DNA of 37,530 bases from contig JAERMM010000009.1 in assembly GCA_016844585.1 (NCBI GenBank), positions 1 to 37,530 of the forward strand, read 5' to 3'. Each line of letters starts with the position of its first letter. The first letter of the stretch is position 1. Below, piece after piece: positions 1,408 through 30,436 of the stretch. Made by a program: the position numbers and the translations under genes. The notes below the pieces were generated by a model. The model was not told the DNA's origin, searched no databases, and was given only the letters and a program-made list of their open reading frames with translations. This DNA comes from Chloroflexota bacterium (lineage in GTDB: Bacteria > Chloroflexota > UBA6077 > SHYK01).

Positions 1408-2217
1408 TTGAGTAGCCCTATGGGTATGTGGTCACGGTTCTTGATCCTATTTCGTGAGCTTGACGTCACAACACTTCGTCCCACGACATCCGCTGAGGCT
1501 TGGGCCGCGCCGGTGGTCGCTTCGACGGGGCCCGAATGGCGGCGCCGCAGACCTGCCTGGCTCGTGGCGGCGTTGACGATCACGAGCCTCCCAATGACAC
1601 TTTTCCTCCCCTTCTATATGCTGGCTTGGCTTGTGCAGTGGTGGGGGGGAAAACCCGGCCAAATCATCACCTTCCTCCCCTATCCCCTGGTGTGGCTGGC
1701 CGCCACATGGTCGGAGATGAAACGCGAGCTGGACGATCCCGACATGCACCCGTGGTGGCACGCTCTGTCATTCCTGATACCGATCTACGGCCTATTCCGC
1801 CTCCACGCTCACTACCGAACAATCCAGGAGCTGCTTCTTCAGCGTGGCGCCGCGTCGCCCGTATCAGGGCGAGGTGCGGTTCTCGGCATGATCGGTGCCG
1901 ACCTCTTGCTTCTGGCGGGCACGGCCAACCTCTTGCTTCTGGCGGGCACGAAGGTAGAGGGCCCGGTCGGCACCGTCGACGTCCTGGGCGGCATGGGGTT
2001 CGTAGCCGTGTTAGTGGGCGGCATGGGGTTCGTAGCCGTGTTCGTCTACGGGCAGGTGGGGCTGAACCGCTACTGGAGCGCGCGGTCCACGCAGACTGTG
2101 CCGGTCCTAATTCATCCGTCAGAGTGGACCATGCTTCTGGCGGGGGGGGTTATCTGCATCAGCGCGCCTGTTCTCCGGCTCTTGTTGGTTAGCTCATTGA
2201 CGAGCGTCGCCGAGTGA
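1408..2217 (+). CDS. Multi-pass membrane protein of unknown function with internal tandem duplications
   Basis: 269 aa ORF (TTG 1408; alternative ATG 1420) with several hydrophobic segments and two in-frame tandem repeats. Confidence 0.55.
   Translation: MSSPMGMWSRFLILFRELDVTTLRPTTSAEAWAAPVVASTGPEWRRRRPAWLVAALTITSLPMTLFLPFYMLAWLVQWWGGKPGQIITFLPYPLVWLAATWSEMKRELDDPDMHPWWHALSFLIPIYGLFRLHAHYRTIQELLLQRGAASPVSGRGAVLGMIGADLLLLAGTANLLLLAGTKVEGPVGTVDVLGGMGFVAVLVGGMGFVAVFVYGQVGLNRYWSARSTQTVPVLIHPSEWTMLLAGGVICISAPVLRLLLVSSLTSVAE
1903..1956 (+). repeat. 27-bp in-frame tandem duplication (LLLLAGTAN/LLLLAGTKV)
   Basis: ctcttgcttctggcgggcacg occurs twice with 27 bp period. Confidence 0.85.
1986..2045 (+). 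repeat. 30-bp in-frame tandem duplication (GGMGFVAVLV/GGMGFVAVFV)
   Basis: gggcggcatggggttcgtagccgtgtt occurs twice with 30 bp period. Confidence 0.85.
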
Positions 2218-2295: not shown

Positions 2296-3657
2296 GTGCG
2301 CCAATTGCCCGTCGCCAGTCTGGATAGGCCCGCGGCCGTCCCTCAGTCATCCGTTCGAGTGCGGGTGACCCTGGTCCTGTTTACCGTCCTCATCGCGCTG
2401 CTGTACGCGGACCAGAACCTCATGGCTCCGAGCTTGACAGCCATCGGCGGTGAGTTCGGATTCTCTCGCTCCGAGATCGATCAGCGTCTTGGCGCTGACG
2501 TCAACCTCATCTTCTGGATGCTGGGTGGGCTGACCACCCTCGGGGTCGGGTACGCCGCTGACCGGGGCTCGAACCGGAAATGGCTGCTGGTTGCGGTCGC
2601 TCTGCTGGGTCAGTCCGCTTGTCTCGCCAGCGGACTGGCCCAGACCTACGATCAGCTCTACTGGGCTCGGGCCCTCACCGGGTTGGGCATCGGCGGGTCG
2701 TTCCCGCTCGTGTATTCGCTGCTGGGCGATTACTTTCCGCCACGCCGGCGTGCGGCCGCGGCGGCGACCATCGGCTTCGCGATGGGGCTCGGCATCGCCG
2801 TCGGCCAGTTTCTGGCGGGCATGCTGCTCGAAAACCACGGCTGGCGCGCAGCGTTCTACCTGGTTTCGATCCCCGGTATGTTCTTTACCCTGGTCTATGC
2901 GTTCGTGGCTCGCGAGCCGAGGCGCGGCCAGCAGGAAGCAGCCCTGAAGGATCTGCTCGCTGCCGGTGGCGTCTATGATGAGCGGATACGGCTCAGCGAC
3001 ATCCCAGAGCTGTTCAAAATTCCCACCAATCAGCTGATTTTCCTGCAGGCGATCCCGGGTACCATTCCGTGGGGCATGTTCTTCGTCTACCTGAACGACT
3101 TCTATGCGCACGACAAGGGGTTCTCAGTGGCCGATGCAACCCTGTTGGTGATAACGGTCGGTGTTGCGGCGATCTTCGGCGGCTTCGTCGGCGGGCTGAT
3201 TGGCCAATACGTCTTCAATCGGTCGTCACACTATCTGCCGCTGCTGTGTGGGCTCACCACGCTAATCGGGGTGATTCCGACAGCGCTTCTGATCAGCTAT
3301 CCGGCCGAGCCGGGCACGCCGATCATCGGACCTCTGCTCGTGGCCGTGATGACCGGGTTGCTGGTCGCCGTCACCGGTCCCAACGTCCGGTCTATCCTGA
3401 TCGCCGTGAACCCGCCCGAGCGTCGCGGCGCCGTGTTCAGCCTGTTCAATCTGTGCGACGATCTTGGCAAGGGCCTCGGAGCCTGGGTCGTGGGAGGGCT
3501 CGCTGCCACCATGGGCAGAGTTCCCGCGTTCCACATCGCCAACCTGATGTGGGTCTTCTGCGGGGTCGTGCTGCTTCTCGCGGTAAGGAGCTTCCATCGA
3601 GACGAGCAGGCGATGCAGGCTCAACTCGCCCAGCACCAGATGGAGGGCAGATCGTGA
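2296..3657 (+). CDS. MFS transporter
   Basis: 453 aa, about 12 hydrophobic segments, MFS signature 'GYAADRGSNRKWLL' and 'RALTGLGIGGSFPLVYSLLGDYFPPRRR'; AAGGAG upstream of GTG start. Confidence 0.85.
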   Translation: MRQLPVASLDRPAAVPQSSVRVRVTLVLFTVLIALLYADQNLMAPSLTAIGGEFGFSRSEIDQRLGADVNLIFWMLGGLTTLGVGYAADRGSNRKWLLVAVALLGQSACLASGLAQTYDQLYWARALTGLGIGGSFPLVYSLLGDYFPPRRRAAAAATIGFAMGLGIAVGQFLAGMLLENHGWRAAFYLVSIPGMFFTLVYAFVAREPRRGQQEAALKDLLAAGGVYDERIRLSDIPELFKIPTNQLIFLQAIPGTIPWGMFFVYLNDFYAHDKGFSVADATLLVITVGVAAIFGGFVGGLIGQYVFNRSSHYLPLLCGLTTLIGVIPTALLISYPAEPGTPIIGPLLVAVMTGLLVAVTGPNVRSILIAVNPPERRGAVFSLFNLCDDLGKGLGAWVVGGLAATMGRVPAFHIANLMWVFCGVVLLLAVRSFHRDEQAMQAQLAQHQMEGRS

Positions 3658-6251
3658 TGGCTTCTCACCTCTACGATCTGGTGCGGCAGCGAGCGGTCTC
3701 GTTTCCGGACGCCATTGCGTTCGGGGGGCAGCAGGGCCTCATCTGGAAGACGATCGATAGCAGACAGCTTCTGGACCTCGTCGATCGGTTGGCCGAGGAG
3801 TTGGCCGCGAAAGGCGTGAAGGAGAGCGACCGAGTAGTCGTATGGCTGCCCAGCCAGTGGCGAACGCCAGTCTATCTCTTCGCGCTCTGGAAGCTGGGCG
3901 CTATCGTGGTGCCGTTCGATCGGGAGATGAACCCAGAAGCTGGCACCGGCATCCTGGATGCTGTGGAGCCCCGCTTCATTCTGGCGGGCCACGGTGAGCG
4001 GCCGGCGTGGGCCAGGGACGAAAACATCGTCGAGTGGTGGGAACCAGGTAGCGAGGTACCCAACGCCTCGGCGCCGTGGTCGGCGCCAGGCGAGGAACTG
4101 GCGGTGGCCGCGTTCACGTCGGGAACGACCGGTGTCCCCAAGGGCTGCATGATCACACATGCCAATCTGCGCTCTCAGATACAGGCGCTCGCGGACGCGG
4201 TGCCTCTCGATCCATCGTGCCGCCTGGCAAGCGTGCTCCCGCTCTCACACCTGTTTGAGCTTACCTGTGGGATGCTTTACGCGGTCAGCACGGGCGCGGC
4301 GATCCACTACATCCCGAGCCGCCGCGGGCCCGACATCGTGCGGGTACTGCGGGAGCAGCAGATAACACACATGATGTGCGTCCCGCAGCTCCTGATGCTG
4401 ATGGGACAAGCGCTGGAGGACCAACTCGCGGCTGCGCTCCCGGCTCCAGTGCTGCGGGCGCTCAAGGCGGTCGCTGACAGGGTGCCACTTGGCGCCAGGC
4501 GCTTCCTGTTCGCGGTGGTGCACCGCAAGCTTGGCGGCCACCTCCGTCTGATGGTTTCCGGCGGGGCGGCCCTACCCGTCGAAACCCACCGGCAGTGGGA
4601 GCGTCTCGGCGTGCGAGTGGTTCAGGGGTACGGCGCGAGCGAATGTTCGCCCGTCATCGCCTGCGGCACGTGGGAAGGCAAGGCACCTGTGGGTAGCGTC
4701 GGCCGGCCGCTACCCGGCGTCGACACGAAGCTCAGTCCAGAGGGCGAGCTGCTGGTCCACGGCCCGAACGTGATGCGTGGCTACTGGAAGGACCCAGAGC
4801 GGACGGCTGAGGTGCTAACGGACGGTTGGTACTCCACCGGAGACCTGGCGCGGATCGACGCCGCGGGGAATGTGTGGATCGAGGGACGGGCTCGCGACCT
4901 GATCGTGCTTCCCTCGGGCCTCAATCTCTGGCCGCAGGACGTCGAAGACGTGCTTCGCGCACATCCCTCAGTCTCAGATGCCACTATCGTGGCTGTTCCG
5001 ACCGCGGCCGGCGGGGCGACGCTCCACGCGTATCTGATTCCCCACGGCTCAGTGTCCGACATCAGCCAGATCGTGAGCGCCAGCAACGCACGACTCGCGC
5101 AGCACCAGCGCGTCGCCTCTGCCTCGTGGTGGCCGGACGGGGATTTCCCGCGGACAAGCACCCTCAAGGTGCGACGCAACCTGCTCCCGCAACCCGAGGC
5201 TGGGGCCACGGTACGGGTGAGCCTGGCACTGGCCGCCGACGACCCGGTGGGCCAGGCGATCTGCGGCATCGCGCGGACCTCCGCCGTCCAGCCCCAGCAG
5301 ACGCTTGGCGAGCTGGGTCTGGACAGCCTTGGCCTTGTGGAGCTGGCAGTAACTCTGGAGGAGAAGACGGGCAAGGCCGTTGCAGAGGGAACGCTCTCAT
5401 CCGACATGACGGTTCAGCAGGTACGAGAAGCGGTAACCAATGCACCGGACGTCGCTGAGGGAAACGACAGGGATGAGACGGGCGAATCCCGAGAACAGCC
5501 AATGTGGCCCTACACGTGGGGACGCGCCTTCCGCGCGCTGGCTTTGCCGGTCGACGTGCAGTACCTCCGCGGCGTGAGCCAGACCATCGTTCTCGGCAAA
5601 GAACACCTGCAGGGTGTCGAGACGCCAGTGATCGTCGCGGGGACGCATCATGGCTTCCCAGACATGTCGCTGGTGCGCCGCGCGCTCGCGGCGTCTCCCT
5701 CTCCCGGGCTGGCTCATCGGCTGGTGGCGGCTGCCGGTTCCGAAGGCGCGGGCTTCACGGATGCTAGCTTCAAGATCGGCGGCATGGGGCTGGCGCCCTG
5801 GTATATGGTTCTGGCCTTTGGCCTCTATCCGCTGAACCAGCGGCGGTTCCAGGGTGAGAGTCTTCGCCGTCTGGTGCAGGTCGCGCAGGCGGGCAACGCC
5901 ATCCTGATCTTTCCCCAGGGTACCCATGCCCGCCCGCAGGATGAGCGGACCGCGGACCCAGCCGCTCGGTTTCGGACAGGCGCGGCGCACCTCGCCCAGG
6001 CCCTCGATGCCCCGGTGATACCTTTCGGGCTGGCGGGGACCGACATCATCCTGCCACCGTCAATCGAGGGCTTCAAGGGGATTGTCTTCGCTGGTGTGCC
6101 GTGGTCCTACAAGCGCGGACCGCTCGCGATCGCGTTCGGCGAGCCCTTGCGAATGGAAGCGTCCGAGTCGGCCGAGGACTTCACAACGCGACTCCAGACG
6201 GAATCGTTCCGATTGACCCGAATGGCCGAGGATGAACTGGCCAGGACATGA
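3657..6251 (+). CDS. Fused AMP-dependent acyl ligase - acyl carrier (PP-binding) - PlsC-type acyltransferase (copy 1)
   Basis: AMP-binding 'FTSGTTGVPKGCMITH', 'GYGASECSPV', 'WYSTGDLARID'; carrier site 'LGELGLDSLGLVEL'; acyltransferase 'THHGFPD' (HX4D) and 'FPQGTH'. ATG at 3657 overlaps the MFS stop (TGATG); the upstream extension to 3069 is out-of-frame MFS sequence. Confidence 0.9.
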   Translation: MASHLYDLVRQRAVSFPDAIAFGGQQGLIWKTIDSRQLLDLVDRLAEELAAKGVKESDRVVVWLPSQWRTPVYLFALWKLGAIVVPFDREMNPEAGTGILDAVEPRFILAGHGERPAWARDENIVEWWEPGSEVPNASAPWSAPGEELAVAAFTSGTTGVPKGCMITHANLRSQIQALADAVPLDPSCRLASVLPLSHLFELTCGMLYAVSTGAAIHYIPSRRGPDIVRVLREQQITHMMCVPQLLMLMGQALEDQLAAALPAPVLRALKAVADRVPLGARRFLFAVVHRKLGGHLRLMVSGGAALPVETHRQWERLGVRVVQGYGASECSPVIACGTWEGKAPVGSVGRPLPGVDTKLSPEGELLVHGPNVMRGYWKDPERTAEVLTDGWYSTGDLARIDAAGNVWIEGRARDLIVLPSGLNLWPQDVEDVLRAHPSVSDATIVAVPTAAGGATLHAYLIPHGSVSDISQIVSASNARLAQHQRVASASWWPDGDFPRTSTLKVRRNLLPQPEAGATVRVSLALAADDPVGQAICGIARTSAVQPQQTLGELGLDSLGLVELAVTLEEKTGKAVAEGTLSSDMTVQQVREAVTNAPDVAEGNDRDETGESREQPMWPYTWGRAFRALALPVDVQYLRGVSQTIVLGKEHLQGVETPVIVAGTHHGFPDMSLVRRALAASPSPGLAHRLVAAAGSEGAGFTDASFKIGGMGLAPWYMVLAFGLYPLNQRRFQGESLRRLVQVAQAGNAILIFPQGTHARPQDERTADPAARFRTGAAHLAQALDAPVIPFGLAGTDIILPPSIEGFKGIVFAGVPWSYKRGPLAIAFGEPLRMEASESAEDFTTRLQTESFRLTRMAEDELART

Positions 6252-6303
6252 TTGCGCGACCTGTGATCCACCGAGCGATCATGAGCGCCAATCAGTGGCA
6301 ACT

Positions 6304-7035
6304 ATGACCCTGGAGATCGAGCCACGCGTCTTTCAACTCCGAGCGTTCGGCGCGCACGTCTTTGCGCTCGTTGATGACGACGTAACGCTCATCGACACGG
6401 GCGCTCCGGGGAGCGGGCGTTTGGTCCTTCGGCAGCTCCAAGAGATCGGCCACTCCCCGAGCGACGTGAAGCGCATCATTCTCACGCACTATCACATTGA
6501 CCATCGCGGCGCGGCTCGAGAGCTGCAAGAGGCCACCGGCGCACGGGTATTCATTCACAAGTCCGAGGCCCCGTACCTCCGCGGCCAGCAGCGGTACCCG
6601 AACTTGGTGAGCTCCGGGCCCCTCGCCAGGCTTGCAGCGCCGTTCTCGGCCGCGATGCGGCTTCGCCCTGTGCAAGTAGAAGAGCTAGACGACGGAGACG
6701 TCATCGCCGCGCTGGGGGGACTTCGCGTGCTGCACTCACCCGGACATACCCGGGGCAGCATCTCCCTGTGGTTCAAAGAGACAGGACTGCTCTTCTCTGG
6801 TGACGCTATGGAGTACCGCCGTGGGCGTCTGCTGCGGCCTGGTCGCCAGGTGACTGAGGACATGGATGTCGCGGAAGCGACGCTGCGCCGTCTGGCTCAA
6901 CTGGGCACCGATCGTATTTGTTTCAGCCACTTCCCGGCGTTTCGCGGCCAGGCAGCGGACGCGTTCCGTGCTCTTCTGAGCGAGCTGGACCAGCAAGCAT
7001 CCGTGCAACGGGTTGTGAAAGGAGCGCCAAAATGA
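6304..7035 (+). CDS. MBL-fold metallo-hydrolase
   Basis: 'LTHYHIDHRGA' (HxHxDH), 'LHSPGHTRGSISLW', 'LFSGDAMEY'. Alternative in-frame ATG at 6232. Confidence 0.88.
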   Translation: MTLEIEPRVFQLRAFGAHVFALVDDDVTLIDTGAPGSGRLVLRQLQEIGHSPSDVKRIILTHYHIDHRGAARELQEATGARVFIHKSEAPYLRGQQRYPNLVSSGPLARLAAPFSAAMRLRPVQVEELDDGDVIAALGGLRVLHSPGHTRGSISLWFKETGLLFSGDAMEYRRGRLLRPGRQVTEDMDVAEATLRRLAQLGTDRICFSHFPAFRGQAADAFRALLSELDQQASVQRVVKGAPK

Positions 7036-9632
7036 GCAACGTGCTTCAAAATTGGCCCATTACTGACCAGGCGTTCGGCGAGTTCCTCGCCACCGCGGCC
7101 GATCGGTACGGCGACCGGCCGGCGCTGCTGATAAAGCCGGGGTTCCGAACTCGCATCACGACGTACAGAGGCCTCGAGCGTGGGGCGCTTCGAGTTGGGC
7201 GATACCTGCAGGCACGCGGAATCGGCAAAGGGGACCGCGTTCTTCTGTGGGCGCCCAACATGCCCGAATGGGTACAGGTCTTCTTTGGCTGTCAGAAGGT
7301 CGGCGCTGTCGTCGTCCCCCTCGACGTCCGCAGCGCCCCCGACTTTGTCGAGACAATCGTGGAAAAGACCCGGCCGAAGCTCGCGGTGCTCTCTCGATCA
7401 ACTGTCCAGCATGCCGGGTCAGTCAACGTTCCCGTGGCGCATCTCGAGCAGTTAGAGATCGACTTGCCGAATGAGGCAGAGCTGCTGGAACGCGTCGAGG
7501 TCGAACCAGACGAGATCGCTGAGATCATGTTTACTTCCGGGACGACCGGTGACCCCAAAGGGGTCATGCTCACGCACCGCAACGTCCTCTTCAACGTCCT
7601 GGGCGCCCATGACGTGCTGACCATCAGGCCCGATTTTCGGCTTCTGTCGCTGTTGCCGCTCAGCCATATGTTGGAGCAGAGCCTCGGCCTGTTCACGCCC
7701 TTATCTGGCGGCGCCAGCATCGCCTATCCCATCAGCCGCCAGCCGAGCGTACTGTTCCGAACCATCGCGGAAAACCGTGTAAGCATGCTTGTCGTCGTAC
7801 CTCAGGCGCTGCAGCTATTCGTCAACGCCATCGAGCGCGAGGCCCGCCGCCAGGGGCGGGAGGCGCAGATTCAGCGCCTGTTCGGCTTCGCCGAGCGATT
7901 GCCGATGCCCTTGCGCCGCCTGGCCTTCCGCTCAGTTCATCAAAAGTTCGGCGGCGGGCTCGATGTTGTCATCAGTGGCGGCGCCTATCTGGATCCGGCG
8001 CTGGCTCACAAATGGCAGCTAATGGGAGTTCAGGTCTTACAGGGTTATGGGGCAACGGAAGCAGCTCCCGTCATCTCATGCGACCGACCGGGACGTGCGA
8101 AGACCGGAGCCGTCGGCACGGCGTTTCCCGGCGTCGATCTGCTGATTGCGCCTGATGGCGAGATTCTCGCGAAAGGTCCGAACGTCTTTGGTGGCTACTG
8201 GGACAACCCGGAAGCCACGGCGCGCGCGCTCGAGGACGGCTGGTACCACACCGGCGATCTCGGATCGCTTGATCAAGATGGCTACGTGCACCTCAAGGGC
8301 CGCAAGAAGGATTTGATCGTGCTGGCCAACGGGCAGAACGTCTACCCGGAGGACATCGAGAGCCGATTGATCCAGCAACCGGCCGTAGAAGACGGTGTCG
8401 TCGTGGGCTTATCACGGCCGAACGGCGCCATCGAAGTGCACGCCGTGCTGCTGATGCGCGACCCATCGGTCGCGGGCGACGCCGTGCGGCAGGCGAACGG
8501 ACACCTTGCGGACCACCAGCAGGTGCAGGGGTTTACCGTCTGGCCATTGGACGATTTTCCAAGGACGCACACGCTAAAGGTGAAGAAACACGAGGTGATC
8601 GACTTCCTGTTGAACCAGGAAACGATCGACGTTTCCTCTCAGTCGGCGGTCCAGACTAAGGCCCCAGACGACCCGCTCTTTCGCCTGATTGCGGAGCTGG
8701 CTTCCGTTCCGGCGTCCCAGGTTACCGCGGAACGAACGCTTGGCGGCGACCTGAATCTCGACTCCCTCAGCCGCGTCGAGCTGCTCTCCGCCGTCGAGGG
8801 AGAGCTGGGCGCCTACGTCGACGAGGCTAACGTTACGCCCAACACCACCGTCGCCGAGCTCCGTCGGTTGGTGGAGGCTTCGCAGAGCCGAAGCGCAGAC
8901 AACACCTTCAAGTCATGGCCGCTAGGCCTGATCGGGAGCGTTGCCCGTGAGCTGTTCGTGCAGCTGATTGTATTCCCTGCGTATCACCTGTTCTGGCGCG
9001 TGCGGAGCACTGGGCTCGAACACGTGGCCGACCTTCATGAGCCCGCGCTCATCGCGGCAAACCATAACTTCGGTGTGGGCACGATCGGACTCGATCCAGC
9101 CGCCGCATGGATGGGGCTCCCTCGCGCCTTGAGACTGCGAACGTGCACCGCCGGCGAAGAACACGCGGTGTTCGACCAGCCAATCAAGGGCTTTCTGGCG
9201 CGCCTCCTAAACGCCTTCCCGCTGTCGAGGGAGGGCAACGTTCGGGGCAGCCTGGAGTACATCGGCAAGCTGCTCGATCTGGGCTGGTCGGTCCTGATCT
9301 TCCCCGAGGGAAAGCTCACCGTTGACGGTCCCATGCAGCCCTTCATGGGGGGAACCGGGCTGATCGCGGTCGAGTCGCGCACACCCGTGGTGCCGATGTA
9401 CATCGAAGTGGAGCGCAAGGGCATCGTCGAGGGGAGCCGCGGTCCGTGGCGTGGGGCGTTCGCCATCCACCTGGGCAAGACGCTGCGGTTTGCCCCCGGA
9501 ACCTCGTATGCGGCAGCGACCCAGCAGATCGAGGACGCGGTTCGCGCCCTGGCGCCAGCGGGCGCGCGGACCGAGCGAGAGAAACGCGACAGCAACCTGC
9601 AAGAGACTGGAATCCGCGGAACGGGGGCCTAG
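7032..9632 (+). CDS. Fused AMP-dependent acyl ligase - acyl carrier (PP-binding) - PlsC-type acyltransferase (copy 2)
   Basis: 'FTSGTTGDPKGVMLTH', 'GYGATEAAPV', 'WYHTGDLGSLD'; carrier 'LGGDLNLDSLSRVEL'; acyltransferase 'NHNFGVGTIGLD' and 'FPEGKLTVDGPMQPF'. ATG 7032 overlaps the MBL stop (ATGA). Confidence 0.9.
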   Translation: MSNVLQNWPITDQAFGEFLATAADRYGDRPALLIKPGFRTRITTYRGLERGALRVGRYLQARGIGKGDRVLLWAPNMPEWVQVFFGCQKVGAVVVPLDVRSAPDFVETIVEKTRPKLAVLSRSTVQHAGSVNVPVAHLEQLEIDLPNEAELLERVEVEPDEIAEIMFTSGTTGDPKGVMLTHRNVLFNVLGAHDVLTIRPDFRLLSLLPLSHMLEQSLGLFTPLSGGASIAYPISRQPSVLFRTIAENRVSMLVVVPQALQLFVNAIEREARRQGREAQIQRLFGFAERLPMPLRRLAFRSVHQKFGGGLDVVISGGAYLDPALAHKWQLMGVQVLQGYGATEAAPVISCDRPGRAKTGAVGTAFPGVDLLIAPDGEILAKGPNVFGGYWDNPEATARALEDGWYHTGDLGSLDQDGYVHLKGRKKDLIVLANGQNVYPEDIESRLIQQPAVEDGVVVGLSRPNGAIEVHAVLLMRDPSVAGDAVRQANGHLADHQQVQGFTVWPLDDFPRTHTLKVKKHEVIDFLLNQETIDVSSQSAVQTKAPDDPLFRLIAELASVPASQVTAERTLGGDLNLDSLSRVELLSAVEGELGAYVDEANVTPNTTVAELRRLVEASQSRSADNTFKSWPLGLIGSVARELFVQLIVFPAYHLFWRVRSTGLEHVADLHEPALIAANHNFGVGTIGLDPAAAWMGLPRALRLRTCTAGEEHAVFDQPIKGFLARLLNAFPLSREGNVRGSLEYIGKLLDLGWSVLIFPEGKLTVDGPMQPFMGGTGLIAVESRTPVVPMYIEVERKGIVEGSRGPWRGAFAIHLGKTLRFAPGTSYAAATQQIEDAVRALAPAGARTEREKRDSNLQETGIRGTGA

Positions 9633-9634
9633 CC

Positions 9635-10858
9635 GTGCGTCGAGTGTCTCTCAGATGGATGCTTCTCTACGGCGCTGCGCGCACAGGGGTGGGCATTCAT
9701 GACATCTTCTACAACGCGGTGGCCGGCTTCTACCTCGCAAGCTACGGCATGCCAAACGTGGCCATTGGCTTTCTCGCGAACGAACGCTCACTGATCGGCG
9801 CCCTTTTGCAACCGCTGGTCGGCGCGGCCAGCGATCGCCTGCAAACGCCTCTCGGCCGGCGCCGGCCAGTCATGCTGCTCGTGATCCCCACCATTCTGGG
9901 CTTCCTGGCGCTGGCCATGCGTCCGGACACCTGGCTCGTGGTGCTGATTTTCATCCTGGGCCCGCTCTTTCTCGGACTCGCCGTCACGGCCTACCAGGTG
10001 CTGCTGCCGGACTGTGTGGTGCCGGAGCAACGAGGCCTAGCAAACGGCGTCAACGTCTTCATGGGGTTCGTGGGCGGCATCGGACTGCTGCTGGTCGCGT
10101 TCCGCGTCTGGGAGTCGCAGCCCGGGATCGTCTTCATCGGGGTGGCCGCGTCTCTGGCCGTGGGCTTCGCGATCACGATGCTCACCATCAAGGAGCCGGC
10201 CGACGGCGTTTCCGAGGAGGCAGAGGAGCGTTTTAGCCTGGGCGACTATCTGCAGAGCATCCTGCAGTACCGGTCTGCAACTCTGTACGTGGCGTCTTAC
10301 TTTTTCTTCTGGTTTGGAATCGGGGGAATCACGCCGTTCATCACTCGATTCGGAAACGAGGAGCTGGGCGTGCCGCAGAACGAGACGTTCCTGCTTCTGC
10401 TCGCCGTGATGATCGCGACCATGGTGTCGGCCGCGCCGGCCGGCTGGCTGGGCGACCGTATCGGCAAGAAGGTCATGACGAGCTGGGGCCTGATTGCCTT
10501 CGCGGTATTCATTTTGATCGGTTCTCAGATCGAGACCCGTGACCAGGCCATTGTGATCCTCGCCTTCGCCGGCATTGGCCAGGCGATCCCGTCGGTGCTG
10601 GCGTACCCGCTCTTTACCGAGCTGGTACCTGCCCGTCGGATGGGCGAACTGACCGGCCTCAGCACTATGGTGTGGTCGCTCGCCCAACCGATCGGCGCCA
10701 CGGTCTTCGGCGCCGTCGCGGACGCGACGGGCAGCCTGCGCAGCGTTCTGGTCGGGGGCAGCATTGCCCTGCTCATCTCGTGGCTGATTCTGCGTGCGGT
10801 GAACGTTCCGCGGAAAGTCCCGCCCGAAAACACCGCGCCAGTTGCAGACGGGGCGTAG
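9635..10858 (+). CDS. MFS transporter (GPH/SLC45-like)
   Basis: GTG at 9635, MRRVSLRWMLLYGAARTGVGIHDIFYNAVAGFYL...; 'LGRRRPVMLL' motif and many hydrophobic helices. Confidence 0.82.
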   Translation: MRRVSLRWMLLYGAARTGVGIHDIFYNAVAGFYLASYGMPNVAIGFLANERSLIGALLQPLVGAASDRLQTPLGRRRPVMLLVIPTILGFLALAMRPDTWLVVLIFILGPLFLGLAVTAYQVLLPDCVVPEQRGLANGVNVFMGFVGGIGLLLVAFRVWESQPGIVFIGVAASLAVGFAITMLTIKEPADGVSEEAEERFSLGDYLQSILQYRSATLYVASYFFFWFGIGGITPFITRFGNEELGVPQNETFLLLLAVMIATMVSAAPAGWLGDRIGKKVMTSWGLIAFAVFILIGSQIETRDQAIVILAFAGIGQAIPSVLAYPLFTELVPARRMGELTGLSTMVWSLAQPIGATVFGAVADATGSLRSVLVGGSIALLISWLILRAVNVPRKVPPENTAPVADGA

Positions 10859-11596: not shown

Positions 11597-12958
11597 TTAG
11601 GCGCCTTCGTGATCTTCACGACTCGGCGAGCCACCTGGCCCGCGCACGCGTCGAACGCGCTCGACGATCTGCCCCTCATGACCTTCCCCTGTCGGCTCGT
11701 AGAAGCGGCTTCCCGCGATTGCATCCGGCAGGTGTTGCTGGTCAACCACGTGACCCTCGAAGTCGTGGGCGTATTTGTAGCCCTTGCCGTAGCCCATCCC
11801 TCGCATTAGTCCCGTAACCGCGTTCCTCAGGTGCAGAGGAACTGGCAGCGCGCCGGAGCGCTGCACCTCCGCCACGGCGCCCTCATAGGCGGTCTTTACC
11901 GAGTTGCTCTTCGGCGCAGTGGCCAGGTAGAGGGCCGCCTCCGTGAGCGGGAACAGCGCCTCTGGCATGCCGACAAAGTGGGCCGCCTGCTGCGCGGCGA
12001 TCGCCACGGGGAGCGCCATCGGGTCTGCGAGCCCGACGTCCTCCGATGCCAGAATGACCAGCCGGCGAGCCACAAATAGCGGATCCTCACCGGCTTCCAG
12101 CATGCGCGCAAGCCAGTACACCGCGGCGTCCGGGTCTGAGCCCCGAATCGACTTGATGAGAGCGGACACAAGGTCATAGTGCTGGTCGCCGGCGCGATCG
12201 TACATGAGCGCACGCCGCTGCATGGCGTCCTCGACGGTTGCCCTGATGACGTGACGCTCACCGTCCCCCGTCGGGGACGTGGCAAGCGTCGCCAATTCCA
12301 GCGCATTCAGTCCAATGCGGGCGTCGCCGCCAGCTACGCCGACGATGTAATCCAACGCGTCCGGATCGAGTTTCACGTGAAACATCGCCAGACCGCGGCT
12401 CTCGTCCCGCAGCGCCCGTTGGACCAGCGCCTCGATGTCCTCATCCGACAGCGACTCGAGGCGATACACGCGAGACCGCGACAGGAGGGCGCTGTTGACC
12501 TCGAACGACGGGTTCTCCGTCGTCGCTCCTATGAGGGTCAAGAGCCCACTTTCGACGTTGGGCAACACCGTATCCTGCTGGGCCTTGTTGAAACGGTGAA
12601 TCTCATCGATGAACAGGATGGTTCGCTGGCCCTGGCTTCGACGCGCCAGCGCGCCATCGGCCGCGCGCCGCAGGTCTGCCACGCCGGCCGAAACACCACT
12701 GAGGGCTACCATGTGTGCGTGGGTGGTTCGGCTGATAACTTCCGCCAGGGTCGTCTTCCCACTCCCCGGTGGCCCCCAGAGAATCATCGACGATAGCTGG
12801 TCCTCTTCGATTGCGCGTCGGAGCGCACGACCACAGCCCACCAGGTGCTCCTGCCCGACGAATTCATCGAGCGTCGTCGGGCGCATTCGAGTGGCGAGAG
12901 GCGCACCCGCGTTGGCCTGGACGCCGCCTGTCTGCACGGTGTCTGGAGCGGCAAACAA
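11597..12958 (-). CDS. rarA: Replication-associated recombination protein A (RarA/MgsA AAA ATPase)
   Basis: 'RPTTLDEFVGQEHLVG', Walker A 'LWGPPGSGKTTLAEVI', Walker B 'LFIDEIHRFNKAQQD', 'GATTENPSFEVNSALLSRSRVYRLE', 'YWLARMLEAGEDPLFVARRLVILASEDVGLADP'. Start uncertain: TTG at 12958 gives 'LFAAPD...'; the longer ORF to 13342 overlaps the rpmH promoter and leader. Confidence 0.92.
   Translation of the reverse strand: MFAAPDTVQTGGVQANAGAPLATRMRPTTLDEFVGQEHLVGCGRALRRAIEEDQLSSMILWGPPGSGKTTLAEVISRTTHAHMVALSGVSAGVADLRRAADGALARRSQGQRTILFIDEIHRFNKAQQDTVLPNVESGLLTLIGATTENPSFEVNSALLSRSRVYRLESLSDEDIEALVQRALRDESRGLAMFHVKLDPDALDYIVGVAGGDARIGLNALELATLATSPTGDGERHVIRATVEDAMQRRALMYDRAGDQHYDLVSALIKSIRGSDPDAAVYWLARMLEAGEDPLFVARRLVILASEDVGLADPMALPVAIAAQQAAHFVGMPEALFPLTEAALYLATAPKSNSVKTAYEGAVAEVQRSGALPVPLHLRNAVTGLMRGMGYGKGYKYAHDFEGHVVDQQHLPDAIAGSRFYEPTGEGHEGQIVERVRRVRGPGGSPSREDHEGA
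12369..12384. promoter_or_regulatory. parS: Candidate parS centromere site (AGTTTCACGTGAAACA)
   Basis: 15/16 match to consensus TGTTTCACGTGAAACA; lies inside rarA, about 5 kb from parAB. Confidence 0.85.
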
Positions 12959-13080
12959 GGCCTCTTGAGAGGGGGAGGAAGGCCCACCCGGGGCAGCCTG
13001 CGCCCTGACAGTGGGCCGGATATCGCGGCCTGAAGAGATGGTTCGCCTCCGATAATCTGTACGATCGACCCATCGCCTGA

Positions 13081-13110
13081 TTGACAGGCGGTTTCGACCC
13101 TTCCTATAAT
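13081..13110 (+). promoter_or_regulatory. Consensus sigma70-type promoter TTGACA-N18-TATAAT for the rpmH operon
   Basis: ttgaca ggcggtttcgacccttcc tataat read directly; about 180 nt upstream of rpmH. Confidence 0.8.
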
Positions 13111-13148
13111 CGCAAAAGCCTGCCAGGGACGACGACTCGCAAACCCCG

Positions 13149-13280
13149 GCGGTAGCGAAGACCGCAATGCCTGTGGCAACCGACGCCGACACCGCGGTAG
13201 CGAAACCGCAACGCCTGTAGCAACTGATGCCGACAAGCGGTAGCAAAAACCGCAATGCCTGTAGCAACCGATGCCGACAG
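13149..13280 (+). repeat. Three tandem ~44-bp repeats in the rpmH leader, each with a GCGGT...ACCGC hairpin
   Basis: Units at 13149, 13194 and 13237: gcggtagcgaagaccgcaatgcctgtggcaaccgacgccgaca / gcggtagcgaaaccgcaacgcctgtagcaactgatgccgaca / gcggtagcaaaaaccgcaatgcctgtagcaaccgatgccgaca. Confidence 0.85.
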
Positions 13281-13291
13281 AAGGAGGCTGA

Positions 13292-13429
13292 GTGCCTAAG
13301 CGGACCTGGCAGCCCAAGCGGATCCCACGCAAGCGCGTCCACGGATTCCTCAAGCGCATGAGCTCACCCGGAGGCCGCGAGGTCATCCGTCGGCGGCGTC
13401 GCCGCGGCCGAAAACTGCTCTCTATTTGA
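13292..13429 (+). CDS. rpmH: 50S ribosomal protein L34 (bL34)
   Basis: GTG start after [52 protein letters not shown]. Absent from the ORF track, probably because it is short. Confidence 0.95.
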
Positions 13430-14145: not shown

Positions 14146-14976
14146 GTGCCGTTTTTCGACGTTTTCCTGCCAGTTTGGAACGGGCTGCTCGTCGGCCCAA
14201 TTGAGAGCGCGCTCATCGCCTTGGCGGAGGCGACAGGCAGCGCCGGCCTTGCAATCATCCTTTTCACAATTGCTGTCCGGACCGCGCTCTTGCCACTCGG
14301 CATCATGCAAGCAAAGTCGCAGAAAGCGATGTACGCGCTACAGCCGCATATAAAGGAGCTGCAGAAACGCTACGGCAACGACCGCCAGAAAATGAGCCAG
14401 GAGCAGATGCGCCTCTATAAGGAGAAGGGTGTCAATCCCCTCGCGGGCTGTTTGCCGATGCTTCTCCAGATGCCGATCTGGTTCGCCCTCTACTCCGCTC
14501 TGCTGACACTCGCCGATCGGAATACCCTCTTTCAACAGTCGTTCCTCTGGGTTGACAACCTCGCCCATCATTCCACACCCACCCTGGAAGACCCGAGAAC
14601 CTGGACGTTGGTGATCCTACCCGTGGTGACCGCGGCCACCCAGTGGGTCGTTCAGCGCATGGCGACGTTGCCAGCGGCAGACCCACAGCAACAGCAGATG
14701 AACCAGATGATGCAGTTCATGCCGCTGATGTTCCTGGTTTTCTCGTTTCAGGTGGCGTCGGGCCTGGTCCTATACTGGGTTATCTCGAACATCTATAGCA
14801 TCGTTCAGCAGTATTTCACACTCGGTTGGGGCACGCTCCCATTGCTTGGATCCGGTTCGCTGGTCGACGGGCCCGAACCCCCACGCGGAGACCAGCCGCA
14901 AATCGGGAAGCCAAACGCCGCACCGCCGCGACGAAAGGGACCAGGCCCGGCGCCTCGGCGGAAAAGGGGGAAGTAG
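14146..14976 (+). CDS. yidC: Membrane protein insertase YidC/Oxa1 family
   Basis: 'GSAGLAIILFTIAVRTALLPLGIMQAKSQKAMYALQPHIKELQKRYGNDRQKMSQEQMRLYKEKGVNPLAGCLPMLLQMPIWFALYSAL'. Confidence 0.95.
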   Translation: MPFFDVFLPVWNGLLVGPIESALIALAEATGSAGLAIILFTIAVRTALLPLGIMQAKSQKAMYALQPHIKELQKRYGNDRQKMSQEQMRLYKEKGVNPLAGCLPMLLQMPIWFALYSALLTLADRNTLFQQSFLWVDNLAHHSTPTLEDPRTWTLVILPVVTAATQWVVQRMATLPAADPQQQQMNQMMQFMPLMFLVFSFQVASGLVLYWVISNIYSIVQQYFTLGWGTLPLLGSGSLVDGPEPPRGDQPQIGKPNAAPPRRKGPGPAPRRKRGK

Positions 14977-22454: not shown

Positions 22455-22467
22455 TAGAATCACTCAA
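22455..22467 (+). promoter_or_regulatory. Candidate leaderless promoter (extended -10 TGG-TAGAAT, 6 nt before ATG)
   Basis: atggTAGAATcactcaATGagc; no Shine-Dalgarno possible between the -10 and the ATG at 22467. Confidence 0.5.
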
Positions 22468-23444
22468 TGAGCAGCTCCCTGCCGGATGCCCGGGTCACTG
22501 CTCGTCCTGGGCTGATAGACACCCTCCAGGCCGGCTTCAACACCGTCAATCGCAATGCGTGGCTCCTCCTTTTACCTCTGGCGATTGACATTTTCCTCTG
22601 GCTTGGCCCCCAGGTATCTATGGGCGGCGCCCTCGATAGCTGGCTGCGAGCAGCCGTGCCGCCTCCCGGCAGTGACAGCAGCCTTGTGCAAATCTTCGAG
22701 CAAAATCGCCGCTCGTCTCTCGAAACGCTCCAGCAGGGCGACGGCATTAGCCGGTTCAACTTGCTGTCGCTGATTGCCATGCCGATCCTGGGCATTCCGA
22801 GCTTTCGTTTCGGCTTGCCCGGCGAGGGCACATTGCTCCCGGCTGGCTCGCTCGGCAGCGCCGCCGCGGTAAGCGCGGGTGTTCTCATAGCGGGTCTGAT
22901 TGCGACAGCGATGTTCTATGGACTCATGGCTCAAGCCGTTCGTGACGGTGGCGCACGTCCTCGGACCTTCATCGACGACGCGGGGCGATTATGCGTGGCC
23001 GTAGCTGGCCTCTATGGCCTGATCATCGTCCTAACGATCGCGATAGGGGTGCCGCTTTACTTCTTGCTGGTGGTCGCCAGCGCCGCGGCGCCGCCCGCCG
23101 CGGCGATTGTCGGTCCGCTGTTCGTTGGGTTCCTACTCTGGGGACTTCTCTACCTCTTCTTCACAACTGAAGCCCTCTTTATTGGCCGCGTTTCCCCGAT
23201 CCTTGCAATGCAACAAAGCATTGTGGTCGTTCGTGGGTACTTCTGGCCAACTCTTGGATTTATCGCACTCTACTTAGTCATAAGCATCGGAATGGCGACT
23301 TTGTGGCAGGAGATTGCTCGGAACCTTCGAGGTGTTGGCACTATCGTAGCCATCGTTGGTCACATTTACATATCGAGTGGGCTCGCGGCAGCCAGTATGA
23401 CGTACTATAGAGAGCGCTCAGAGCAACTGCGATCTCACGCCTGA
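22467..23444 (+). CDS. Multi-pass integral membrane protein of unknown function
   Basis: 325 aa with several long hydrophobic helices. Confidence 0.75.
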   Translation: MSSSLPDARVTARPGLIDTLQAGFNTVNRNAWLLLLPLAIDIFLWLGPQVSMGGALDSWLRAAVPPPGSDSSLVQIFEQNRRSSLETLQQGDGISRFNLLSLIAMPILGIPSFRFGLPGEGTLLPAGSLGSAAAVSAGVLIAGLIATAMFYGLMAQAVRDGGARPRTFIDDAGRLCVAVAGLYGLIIVLTIAIGVPLYFLLVVASAAAPPAAAIVGPLFVGFLLWGLLYLFFTTEALFIGRVSPILAMQQSIVVVRGYFWPTLGFIALYLVISIGMATLWQEIARNLRGVGTIVAIVGHIYISSGLAAASMTYYRERSEQLRSHA

Positions 23445-23512: not shown

Positions 23513-25382
<1,870 letters not shown>

Positions 25383-25402: not shown

Positions 25403-25430
25403 TGGGGGTTTCGCCCGATTGGCCGCCACG

Positions 25431-26489
25431 ATGATCCGCGTTCCAATTCCCCGAATCGTGCTGGACGGCATGGGGGGCGATTTCGCCCCAACTGCCACGG
25501 TAGCAGGCGCGCTGCTGGCCCACCGCCAGCTCGGCGCCAGCGTCATCCTTACCGGCCCGGAGTCGCTGCTCAGGGATGAGCTGCAGCGTCAGCACGCCAA
25601 CCCGAGCGACGTACGCGTGGTGGACGCGCCCGAGATCATCGGGATGGGCGAGCACCCCGTGGCTGCCGTTCGCAGCAGAAGAAAGTCTTCCATCGTCGTT
25701 GGGCTAGATCTCGTCTCCGCCGGCGAGGCCGAGGCGTTCGTTAGCGCCGGTAACACCGGAGCCGCCATGGCCGCGGCCGTGCTGAGGCTCAGGCGCATTG
25801 AGGGGATAGACCGCCCCGCGCTGGCGACACCGTTTCCCACTTCTCGCGGCGCGTGTCTGCTGCTCGACGTCGGGGCCAACGCCGATGCGCGCGCCCAGAA
25901 TTTGGCCCAGTTCGGCATTATGGGAGTCACCTACGCGGAAAGGGTCTTGGGTATCGCGCAGCCACGTGTCGCGTTGCTCAACATTGGCGAGGAGGAGTCC
26001 AAAGGGAGCCTGGTGGCGCAGGAGGCGCACCTGCAACTCGCCCGTCTTGGCCTGAACTTCATCGGAAATATCGAGGGCAAAGACATCCCTGAAGGCACGG
26101 CTGACGTGATCGTCATGGACGGCTTCGTGGGAAACATTCTCATCAAATTCGCCGAGGGCCTGGCTTCGAATCTGATGCGTACCATTCGCGCTGAGATCCG
26201 GGCCAACCCAGTCAGCACGCTCCTGGGCATCGGCCTGAAGCCGATGTTTGATCGAATCCGCGGTCGGATGGACTACGCCGACTATGGAGGAGCGCCGCTG
26301 TTAGGAGTGAACGGCATCTGTATCGTTGCCCACGGACGGTCCACACCGCGCGCCATTCGCAACGCGATTCGGGTGGCCGGTGAGGCCGCGAATCAATCGC
26401 TGATAAGCGTCATCAAGGAAGGCGTCGCGGCAGCAACGGAGAAAGCGCCCATCGGGAGCGAATCGCCCTCGTCGTCGCCGACGCGCTGA
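25431..26489 (+). CDS. plsX: Phosphate acyltransferase PlsX
   Basis: 'RIVLDGMGGDFAPTATVAGALLA', 'AFVSAGNTGAAMAAA', 'LLDVGANADARAQNLAQFGIMG', 'LLNIGEEESKG', 'VIVMDGFVGNILIKFAEGLA', 'DYADYGGAPLLGVNGICIVAHG'. Alternative TTG 25419. Confidence 0.95.
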   Translation: MIRVPIPRIVLDGMGGDFAPTATVAGALLAHRQLGASVILTGPESLLRDELQRQHANPSDVRVVDAPEIIGMGEHPVAAVRSRRKSSIVVGLDLVSAGEAEAFVSAGNTGAAMAAAVLRLRRIEGIDRPALATPFPTSRGACLLLDVGANADARAQNLAQFGIMGVTYAERVLGIAQPRVALLNIGEEESKGSLVAQEAHLQLARLGLNFIGNIEGKDIPEGTADVIVMDGFVGNILIKFAEGLASNLMRTIRAEIRANPVSTLLGIGLKPMFDRIRGRMDYADYGGAPLLGVNGICIVAHGRSTPRAIRNAIRVAGEAANQSLISVIKEGVAAATEKAPIGSESPSSSPTR

Positions 26490-27202
26490 TGCAAGTCCAC
26501 ACGAACGACAGGGCGGCGCAGCAGAAGATTTACCTGAGCCTTGTCTACCTGGTCCTGGCGCTGGGGTTCCTTCTCGGAGGCTGCGTTCTCTCTTCGAACC
26601 CTGAGGCCTTCGATCAGAGCTTCGTCGCGTCGCTCGCTTCTCTAGCCGCCGGTCTGTTTTTCTGGTGGCTTAACCAGCGATTGATCCGGAGGTGGGGTCC
26701 AAAAAGCCGACTCGACGGCCCGTTGGCCAGAGCGCTGCGCGGACTCGACGATCGCCATCATCTTTTCGTGTTTCCCGCGTCCTCGCTTCCCGACTATCTC
26801 CTCGTGGGACCTGTCGGCATCCTCGTCCTGGTGCCCAGGGCCATTGGCGGAAACGTGAAATGCTACGAAGGCCGTTGGCTCCACGACGACAATCGCCCCC
26901 CGATCGCTCGGGCGATCAGATTCCTGGCGCCGGGGCCGCCACTAGGGAACCCTTCCGCGGAGGTGCAGCGAGGCATCTCGACCGTTCGCCGCTTCCTGGG
27001 ACGTCACGCGCCAGCCGAGTTGGCCGATCGCACCGGCGTAGACGGCATCGTGGTATTCACGGAGCCGAAGGTCAACCTCACACTTCAGGGGTGTCGGACG
27101 CCGGCCCTTTCACTGCGCTCTTTGCGCTCCCATATCCAGAGAAGCCCCAGGGCCCTCAGCAGCTCAGAAACAGCCGACTTGGCCCGTCTGATGGGCGGCT
27201 GA
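26489..27202 (+). CDS. Membrane protein with NERD-like domain
   Basis: N-terminal hydrophobic hairpin followed by 'HHLFVFPASSLPDYLLVGPVGILVLVPRAIGGNVKCYEGRW...VDGIVVFTEPKVNLTL'. ATG overlaps the plsX stop. Confidence 0.65.
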   Translation: MQVHTNDRAAQQKIYLSLVYLVLALGFLLGGCVLSSNPEAFDQSFVASLASLAAGLFFWWLNQRLIRRWGPKSRLDGPLARALRGLDDRHHLFVFPASSLPDYLLVGPVGILVLVPRAIGGNVKCYEGRWLHDDNRPPIARAIRFLAPGPPLGNPSAEVQRGISTVRRFLGRHAPAELADRTGVDGIVVFTEPKVNLTLQGCRTPALSLRSLRSHIQRSPRALSSSETADLARLMGG

Positions 27203-28942: not shown

Positions 28943-30436
28943 ATGGCGTCGCTCGCACCGTCCGTGCCACCTGAGCACGTGGGTCCCCGCGCGCGACGCT
29001 GGCCGATCCCCGACAACCGCTGGCACGGCGTTTCCGACCCGCCACTATCACTTGCACTTCTATGCTCGGGGGGTTGTGGCTTCCTGGCACTTGGGCTCTA
29101 CCTCCGCACGACGGCCCCGACCATATCGTGGGCGCACGGCGGCGCGGACGGCGGCGACCTCATCACGGCTGCCTATCTGCTCGGCATTCCACATCCGACT
29201 GGCTATCCACTCTGGGTCCTGGCGGCCCATGTCGCGACCTGGGTTCCCGTGGGGGACGTCGCGTTCCGGGTCAACGCGTTCTCTGCGCTCTGCGGCGCCT
29301 TGACTGTCGGGCTCGTGGCGGCTTGCACTGTCAAAATCGCGCAACGGCTGGAGGCTGAGAGCCCGCCCACGTTGGGTCCGGCGCTCGCCGGTTCCGCCGC
29401 AGGACTCGCCTTTGCGATCTCTCCCATGCTCTGGTCACAGTCGACTATCGCAGAAGTGATGACGATGCACACGGCCCTTGTGAGTGCCTTGCTCCTCCTC
29501 GCGCTCCGCGTCGAAGGCGCCCGGCAATCGAAGACCACACTTTTCGAGCTCGGGCTTGTCGCCGGCGCCTCGCTGAGCGTGCATCGCACCGCGCTGCTGA
29601 GCGTCCTAGCAGTCGCCCCGCTGCTGGTGAGACCGTGGCGCAAGACGCAGTGGCCGCAGTTCGCGATCGCAGCCCTGGGAGTCGCGCTGGGCCTGGCCCC
29701 TTATGCGCTATTGTCACTGCGAGCCGGTGCGGCGCCCGCGGCCGACTGGGGCCACCCGGCCACGATTGAGGCTTTCCTGCACCACGTATCTGGAGCAGAC
29801 TACGGGTACTTGCTCACAATCGTCCCGCTGCCGCAAGCGCTCGAGCGGTTCGCGACCATTCCCCATCAAGTGGCTGAGCAATTCACCTGGCTAGGATTCG
29901 GTCTTGTGCTACTGGGCGGCTATCGCCTTGCCACAAGAGACAGGAACACAAGCATTGCGCTCGCAGTAACATTTTCGGCGAACGTCGTTTTCGCCTTGCT
30001 GTACGGGGGCGAAGGCAGCGAGTCGTACCTGCTCCCTGCTTTTGGAGTCGCTGCCATCTGGCTCGGCCTCGGACTGCTGGCCCTGGTCGACGCTATGCGA
30101 AACCACGGGTTTGTCGTTCAAACCTCCGTCGCGGCCGTATGCACCGCCGTCCTGCTGGTCGCGGGCGCCCAGCGGGCGCCATCTCTGGATCTGAGCGACG
30201 ACCGTCAAGCACGGACGCTTGCGGAAGCCACGCTGATCGCCGCTGCGCCTGACACGATGGTCTTCCGGAGCGACGACGCGGCGGCGTTTACCTTGCGCTA
30301 TCTTCAGGCCGTAGAAGGGCTCCGTCCGGACGTCGCCGTGGTCGATCCACGTCTGCTGAGGTTTCAATGGTACCGGGACGGCCTCGAAACACTCTACCCT
30401 TCGATCCCGGAAATCAAGCTGCTCCATGCGCAATAG
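28943..30436 (+). CDS. DUF2723-family membrane protein (glycosyltransferase-like)
   Basis: 'YLRTTAPTISWAHGGADGGDLITAAYLLGIPHPTGYPLWVLAAHVATWVPVGDVAFRVNAFSALCGALTVGL' typical of DUF2723; multi-TM. Confidence 0.85.
   Translation: MASLAPSVPPEHVGPRARRWPIPDNRWHGVSDPPLSLALLCSGGCGFLALGLYLRTTAPTISWAHGGADGGDLITAAYLLGIPHPTGYPLWVLAAHVATWVPVGDVAFRVNAFSALCGALTVGLVAACTVKIAQRLEAESPPTLGPALAGSAAGLAFAISPMLWSQSTIAEVMTMHTALVSALLLLALRVEGARQSKTTLFELGLVAGASLSVHRTALLSVLAVAPLLVRPWRKTQWPQFAIAALGVALGLAPYALLSLRAGAAPAADWGHPATIEAFLHHVSGADYGYLLTIVPLPQALERFATIPHQVAEQFTWLGFGLVLLGGYRLATRDRNTSIALAVTFSANVVFALLYGGEGSESYLLPAFGVAAIWLGLGLLALVDAMRNHGFVVQTSVAAVCTAVLLVAGAQRAPSLDLSDDRQARTLAEATLIAAAPDTMVFRSDDAAAFTLRYLQAVEGLRPDVAVVDPRLLRFQWYRDGLETLYPSIPEIKLLHAQ

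Follow-up and report, generated by a model that had tools for sequence, protein, structure and literature searches.

The gene cluster at positions 2296-10858 of a 37,530-nucleotide stretch of Chloroflexota DNA (hereafter the window) raises the question of what two proteins that each join an AMP-ligase, an acyl carrier and a PlsC acyltransferase in one chain might do between two transporters and on either side of a hydrolase. The source genome is fragmented (443 contigs, about 80% complete) and the window is its contig 305.

Organisation of the cluster

The cluster comprises five co-directional genes, as follows.

2296-3657, + strand: MFS1, major facilitator transporter, 453 aa (Pfam MFS_1, 157 bits)
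3657-6251, + strand: FusA, 864 aa, AMP-ligase (AMP-binding and AMP-binding_C), carrier (PP-binding) and PlsC acyltransferase by Pfam
6304-7035, + strand: MBL-fold metallo-hydrolase, 243 aa (Pfam Lactamase_B, 115 bits)
7032-9632, + strand: FusB, 866 aa, AMP-ligase, carrier and PlsC in the same order as FusA by Pfam
9635-10858, + strand: MFS2, 407 aa, MFS_2/GPH-related transporter (Pfam MFS_1, 111 bits; MFS_2, 68 bits)

The TGA of MFS1 overlaps the ATG of FusA (TGATG, 3655-3659), the ATG of FusB at 7032 lies within the MBL stop (ATGA) with a Shine-Dalgarno-like AAAGGAG ending 7 nt upstream of it, and the FusB stop (9630-9632) is followed after a 2-nt gap by the GTG start of MFS2 at 9635. The weakest link in this operon-like packing is the junction between FusA and the MBL gene, where a spacer of 52 nt (6252-6303) is found; a chimeric assembly at this point seems unlikely. 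Codon-position GC is coding-like in all five genes (0.71-0.81 at the third position, 0.44-0.50 at the second), and AMP-binding, PP-binding and Acyltransferase all score over the Pfam cut-off in both fusions. The coordinates and junctions given in a sequence-only reading of this DNA are thus correct, and Pfam confirms the two ligase-ACP-PlsC fusions, central MBL protein and outer MFS proteins that it had named.

A site scan of the five-gene cluster found no promoter-like sites, and only two terminator-like sites against 5.2 expected by chance, both of them intragenic. Hence a single transcription unit appears plausible from the sequence. Ahead of the cluster, within an ORF at 1408-2217, window positions 1981-2040 hold tandem copies of a unit about 25 nt long (GGCGGCATGGGGTTCGTAGCCGTGTT).

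Active-site motifs and predicted folds of the fusions

The phosphopantetheine serine of the carrier domain (LDSL) is conserved in both fusions. In FusA, the carrier serine (LGLDSLG), the HX4D motif of the PlsC domain (THHGFPD) and the sequence IFPQG are kept in all orthologues that cover these regions, so that PlsC motif III reads FPQG instead of FPEG throughout the FusA proteins; the motifs of the ligase domain are likewise conserved among the FusA orthologues. Structure prediction, suggested earlier as a check, gave a model of the FusA PlsC domain of moderate confidence (pLDDT 62.7, pTM 0.65) whose best fold matches in the PDB are PlsC, GPAT and PatA, the solved PlsC 5kym being matched with E = 1.5e-7. 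With its HX4D motif and this predicted fold FusA has the features of a PlsC/GPAT-type acyltransferase. PRK08633, the NCBIfam model for fused Aas proteins, is matched by both ligase domains, though at scores well below its cut-off, and a PDB search with the FusA profile has gramicidin synthetase at the top; these matches do not separate fatty acids from other acids as ligase substrates.

Motif I of the FusB PlsC domain carries a five-residue insert (NHNFGVGTIGLD) which turns HX4D into HX9D and makes the transferase activity of this protein uncertain; judged by this motif, FusB of the window may act without acyl transfer. The insert is shared only with the FusB of genome G002, most other FusB-clade proteins having HX4D. 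A FusB-like side clade (loci L028, L029, L115 and L118) has lost both the PlsC histidine and aspartate (NYQGPYA) while its ligase and carrier remain intact, and would represent a natural pseudo-acyltransferase group. Both the HX9D motif and this side clade would fit a FusB that is no longer an acyltransferase here and works, as an acyl-carrier ligase or as a scaffold that binds lipid, in the service of FusA or the MBL protein. However, FusB retains the histidine, the aspartate and FPEG, this region is well conserved between FusB and its 63%-identical counterpart in G002, and Pfam still gives the PlsC domain 60 bits; we regard this reading of FusB as very improbable.

Relationship between FusA and FusB

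Pairwise comparison shows FusA and FusB to be 32% identical, whereas FusA orthologues in other genomes are 55-62% identical to FusA. In a tree of the ligase domains, the FusA proteins group in a fully supported clade separate from FusB, and a recent tandem duplication of the fusion is therefore ruled out. FusB has a 62-63% identical orthologue in G002, which belongs to the same family. A scan of species genomes with FusA found orthologues exclusively in Chloroflexota. By these comparisons FusA and FusB are ancient paralogues that have been brought together. The description of the two as paralogous three-domain proteins with the same domains stands; they did not arise by local duplication.

A duplicated transporter is likewise ruled out, as no paralogy between MFS1 and MFS2 is detectable (BLASTP E = 0.025). 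Since the outer genes are not detectably related and the fusions are ancient paralogues, the mirror-like look of the cluster, to which the earlier reading had drawn attention, is superficial and reflects appearance and not history.

Conservation of the neighbourhood

Our survey of neighbourhoods covered Chloroflexota, to which a single FusA scan of species genomes and a single FusB search of plasmids were added; the loci compared include draft MAGs and, besides these, two Fusobacteriota records. The five-gene order was absent from all of about 40 related FusA/FusB loci examined outside this genome. A conserved five-gene operon is ruled out, as no FusA or FusB locus examined elsewhere has this order. 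The expectation of a conserved neighbourhood holds for the two halves, which recur separately (MBL-FusB in 23/25 loci and MFS-FusA in 5/10), and fails for the whole, which was found only in this genome. The cluster is thus best described, on gene order, as two putative modules placed end to end, MBL-FusB and MFS-FusA.

The MBL protein has kept a complete metal site, with HYHIDH (an HxHxDH motif), GHTRG and SGD. The FusB clade and its near relatives supplied 26 loci. Of these, 25, from eight Chloroflexota families, were assessable (L105 ends at a contig edge), and 23 have an MBL homologue directly upstream of FusB; 21 were recognised from neighbouring ORFs and two (L098 and L108) were added by six-frame search. 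At some of these loci the MBL gene and FusB are divergent, lying on opposite strands. The two exceptions are L025 and L111. More distant FusB-like loci (L028-L030, L032, L110, L112-L115 and L117) showed no MBL gene in the stretches searched. At a threshold of E <= 1e-125, relatives of FusB turn up in 58 of 400 Chloroflexota genomes, a count that takes in stand-alone ligases and distant FusB-like clades. On this recurrence MBL-FusB is an old pair. In genome G010 an MBL gene directly precedes a stand-alone HX4D PlsC that has neither ligase nor carrier (L124:6221-8095), a hint that the MBL protein is tied less to acid activation than to the transfer of acyl groups to lipid.

FusA is rarer, being present in 10 of 400 Chloroflexota genomes with this genome counted. 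An MFS gene directly adjoins it in five of 10 FusA loci outside the window, and in an approximate calculation, with a chance adjacency of about 2% per locus (574 MFS matches in 55 Mb), this gives P of about 1.5e-6. The neighbours are of the ATG22 type in L017 and L022 and homologues of MFS2 in L018, L020 and L023 (166-248 bits), L023 having a second MFS gene. The other five FusA loci have no MFS neighbour, and this counts against the explanation that we prefer.

The two modules might also be functionally separate and merely adjacent in this genome, MFS1-FusA (plus MFS2) on one side and MBL-FusB on the other. They are apart in all other genomes examined: FusA and a FusB-like gene lie on different contigs in G007, G024 and G028, and G002 has MBL-FusB without FusA. 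Against this, the TGATG and ATGA couplings and the 2-nt gap bind the genes tightly everywhere except at the 52-nt FusA-MBL junction, no promoter-like site lies within the cluster, and both halves share their enzyme chemistry. We consider mere adjacency improbable.

The MFS transporters

The best PDB sequence matches of MFS1 are 6e8j/6e9c (1.8e-9) and a D-galactonate transporter (5.4e-9), and 6e9c is HnSpns, a bacterial Spinster homologue (PMC9440201). The two E-values are too close to distinguish a lipid from a sugar-acid transporter for MFS1, of whose 42 NCBIfam matches 25 were listed. For MFS2, the predicted model (pLDDT 86.5) has SLC45A4 and other, generic MFS proteins as its closest PDB folds. 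MFS2 has 14 NCBIfam matches, none of them to LplT, and its 50 best structural matches include neither LplT nor MFSD2A. Family and fold searches thus give no support for recognising an LplT or MFSD2A-like protein in MFS2, or for a lysophospholipid as the putative substrate; this counts against the explanation that we favour.

Genomic context

The genome also encodes PlsY, PlsX (in the window, 25419-26489) and a separate stand-alone PlsC. The fusions therefore do not replace a missing PlsX, PlsY or PlsC, and are auxiliary to the main phosphatidate route. Housekeeping genes follow the cluster at window positions 11597-33000, among them the following.

11597-13342, minus strand: MgsA-type AAA ATPase
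14146-14976: YidC-type insertase
23913-25382: gyrase B, C-terminal part
30426-32426: DUF4012 protein

Two ORFs in this region, 22467-23444 (325 aa) and 26489-27202 (237 aa), have no Pfam match; the latter begins right at the PlsX stop.

A different role for the fusions would be the acylation of a non-standard acceptor, such as a sugar, a polyol, an amino lipid or a hydroxy-lipid, with the MFS proteins exporting the product of an unusual lipid or metabolite synthesis. PatA, which is among the fold relatives of the FusA PlsC domain, acylates a glycolipid. The order of adenylation and carrier domains is that of NRPS/CAR-type assembly lines, gramicidin synthetase is the best PDB match of FusA by profile, and FusA is rare and patchy in the manner of accessory pathways. 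In contrast, the operon contains no other biosynthetic genes and runs out into housekeeping genes, and MBL-FusB is widespread and often comes without further accessory genes. We see this synthesis of an unusual lipid as unlikely, though a serious competitor.

Comparison with known systems

AasS works on free ACP and has neither a carrier nor a transferase domain, unlike the fusions, although these too would turn free fatty acids into acyl-ACP for use in lipids. A-T multidomain enzymes (NRPS loading modules and carboxylic acid reductases) also have an adenylation domain that loads an acid on a carrier in the same chain; FusA and FusB differ in that off-loading would be by a PlsC acyltransferase and not by a condensation or reductase domain.

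Lysophospholipids that LplT has flipped are acylated in E. coli by Aas, which first produces the acyl-ACP for this step out of free holo-ACP (PMC11416262). The cluster resembles this system in having an MFS gene beside an enzyme that unites an acyl-ACP synthetase (AMP-ligase) and a PlsC-type transferase in one chain, and in its likely role alongside de novo synthesis; fused LplT-Aas forms also exist. It differs in domain order and carrier, Aas being PlsC then ligase with free holo-ACP (PMC11416262) whereas FusA and FusB are ligase-carrier-PlsC with the carrier in cis, and in the presence of a second fusion enzyme, of an MBL hydrolase and of MFS proteins that have not been recognised as LplT. 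The analogy with lplT-aas, with reversed order and built-in carrier, is upheld by the Pfam domains and by the MFS genes found beside FusA.

The ligase-carrier-PlsC architecture itself is not new, since Ilyobacter polytropus encodes such genes in tandem. Its proteins WP_013388595.1 and WP_013388596.1 (about 820 aa) are annotated only as 'AMP-binding protein' and have the three domains in the order of FusA and FusB. They differ in being 25-27% identical to FusB, in forming their own clade and in having no adjoining MBL or MFS gene. The two adjacent genes lie on a plasmid (L127:7962-13129) and represent an independent tandem pair in Fusobacteriota. We found no published description of this architecture in the literature searched. 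Three features appear to be undescribed: the recurrent pairing of MBL with FusB, that of MFS with FusA, and the union of both in this cluster.

Proposed function

The reading that we tentatively favour, at somewhat less than an even chance, is that the cluster carries two modules of auxiliary acyl-lipid metabolism on one transcript, serving acyl salvage or remodelling in the manner of Aas but with a built-in carrier. We infer each reaction, substrate and direction of transport, and the single transcript, from the observed domains, conserved motifs and gene order, the recurring module pairings and the presence of PlsX, PlsY and PlsC, together with the predicted FusA PlsC fold and the Aas-type ligase matches. 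The AMP-ligase domain of each fusion would convert a free fatty acid to acyl-AMP, and the acyl group would then be loaded on the phosphopantetheine arm of the carrier domain of the same chain. From there the PlsC domain would pass it on to a membrane-lipid hydroxyl at the cytoplasmic face, the acceptor most likely being a lysophospholipid or a related lipid. Like LplT for Aas, the MFS protein beside FusA would carry either the acceptor or its acyl lipid through the membrane, and the MBL protein beside FusB would hydrolyse the same lipid, by deacylation or by head-group or ester cleavage, thereby supplying or trimming the substrate. Rather doubtful is the idea that MBL-FusB and MFS-FusA are undescribed Chloroflexota lipid-acylation modules, with the acyl carrier integrated in a ligase-transferase chain and a metallo-hydrolase as regular partner, that together run a deacylation-reacylation cycle on a lipid other than an ordinary lysophospholipid.

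If the favoured reading of auxiliary acyl-lipid metabolism is true, acid activation, carrier and transfer to lipid would be united in single proteins, which would open remodelling to direct tests on a single purified chain. The HX9D and lost-motif variants would offer natural tests of the role of the transferase domain, and the conserved MBL-FusB pair would provide a named, widespread target in a phylum whose lipid metabolism has been little studied.
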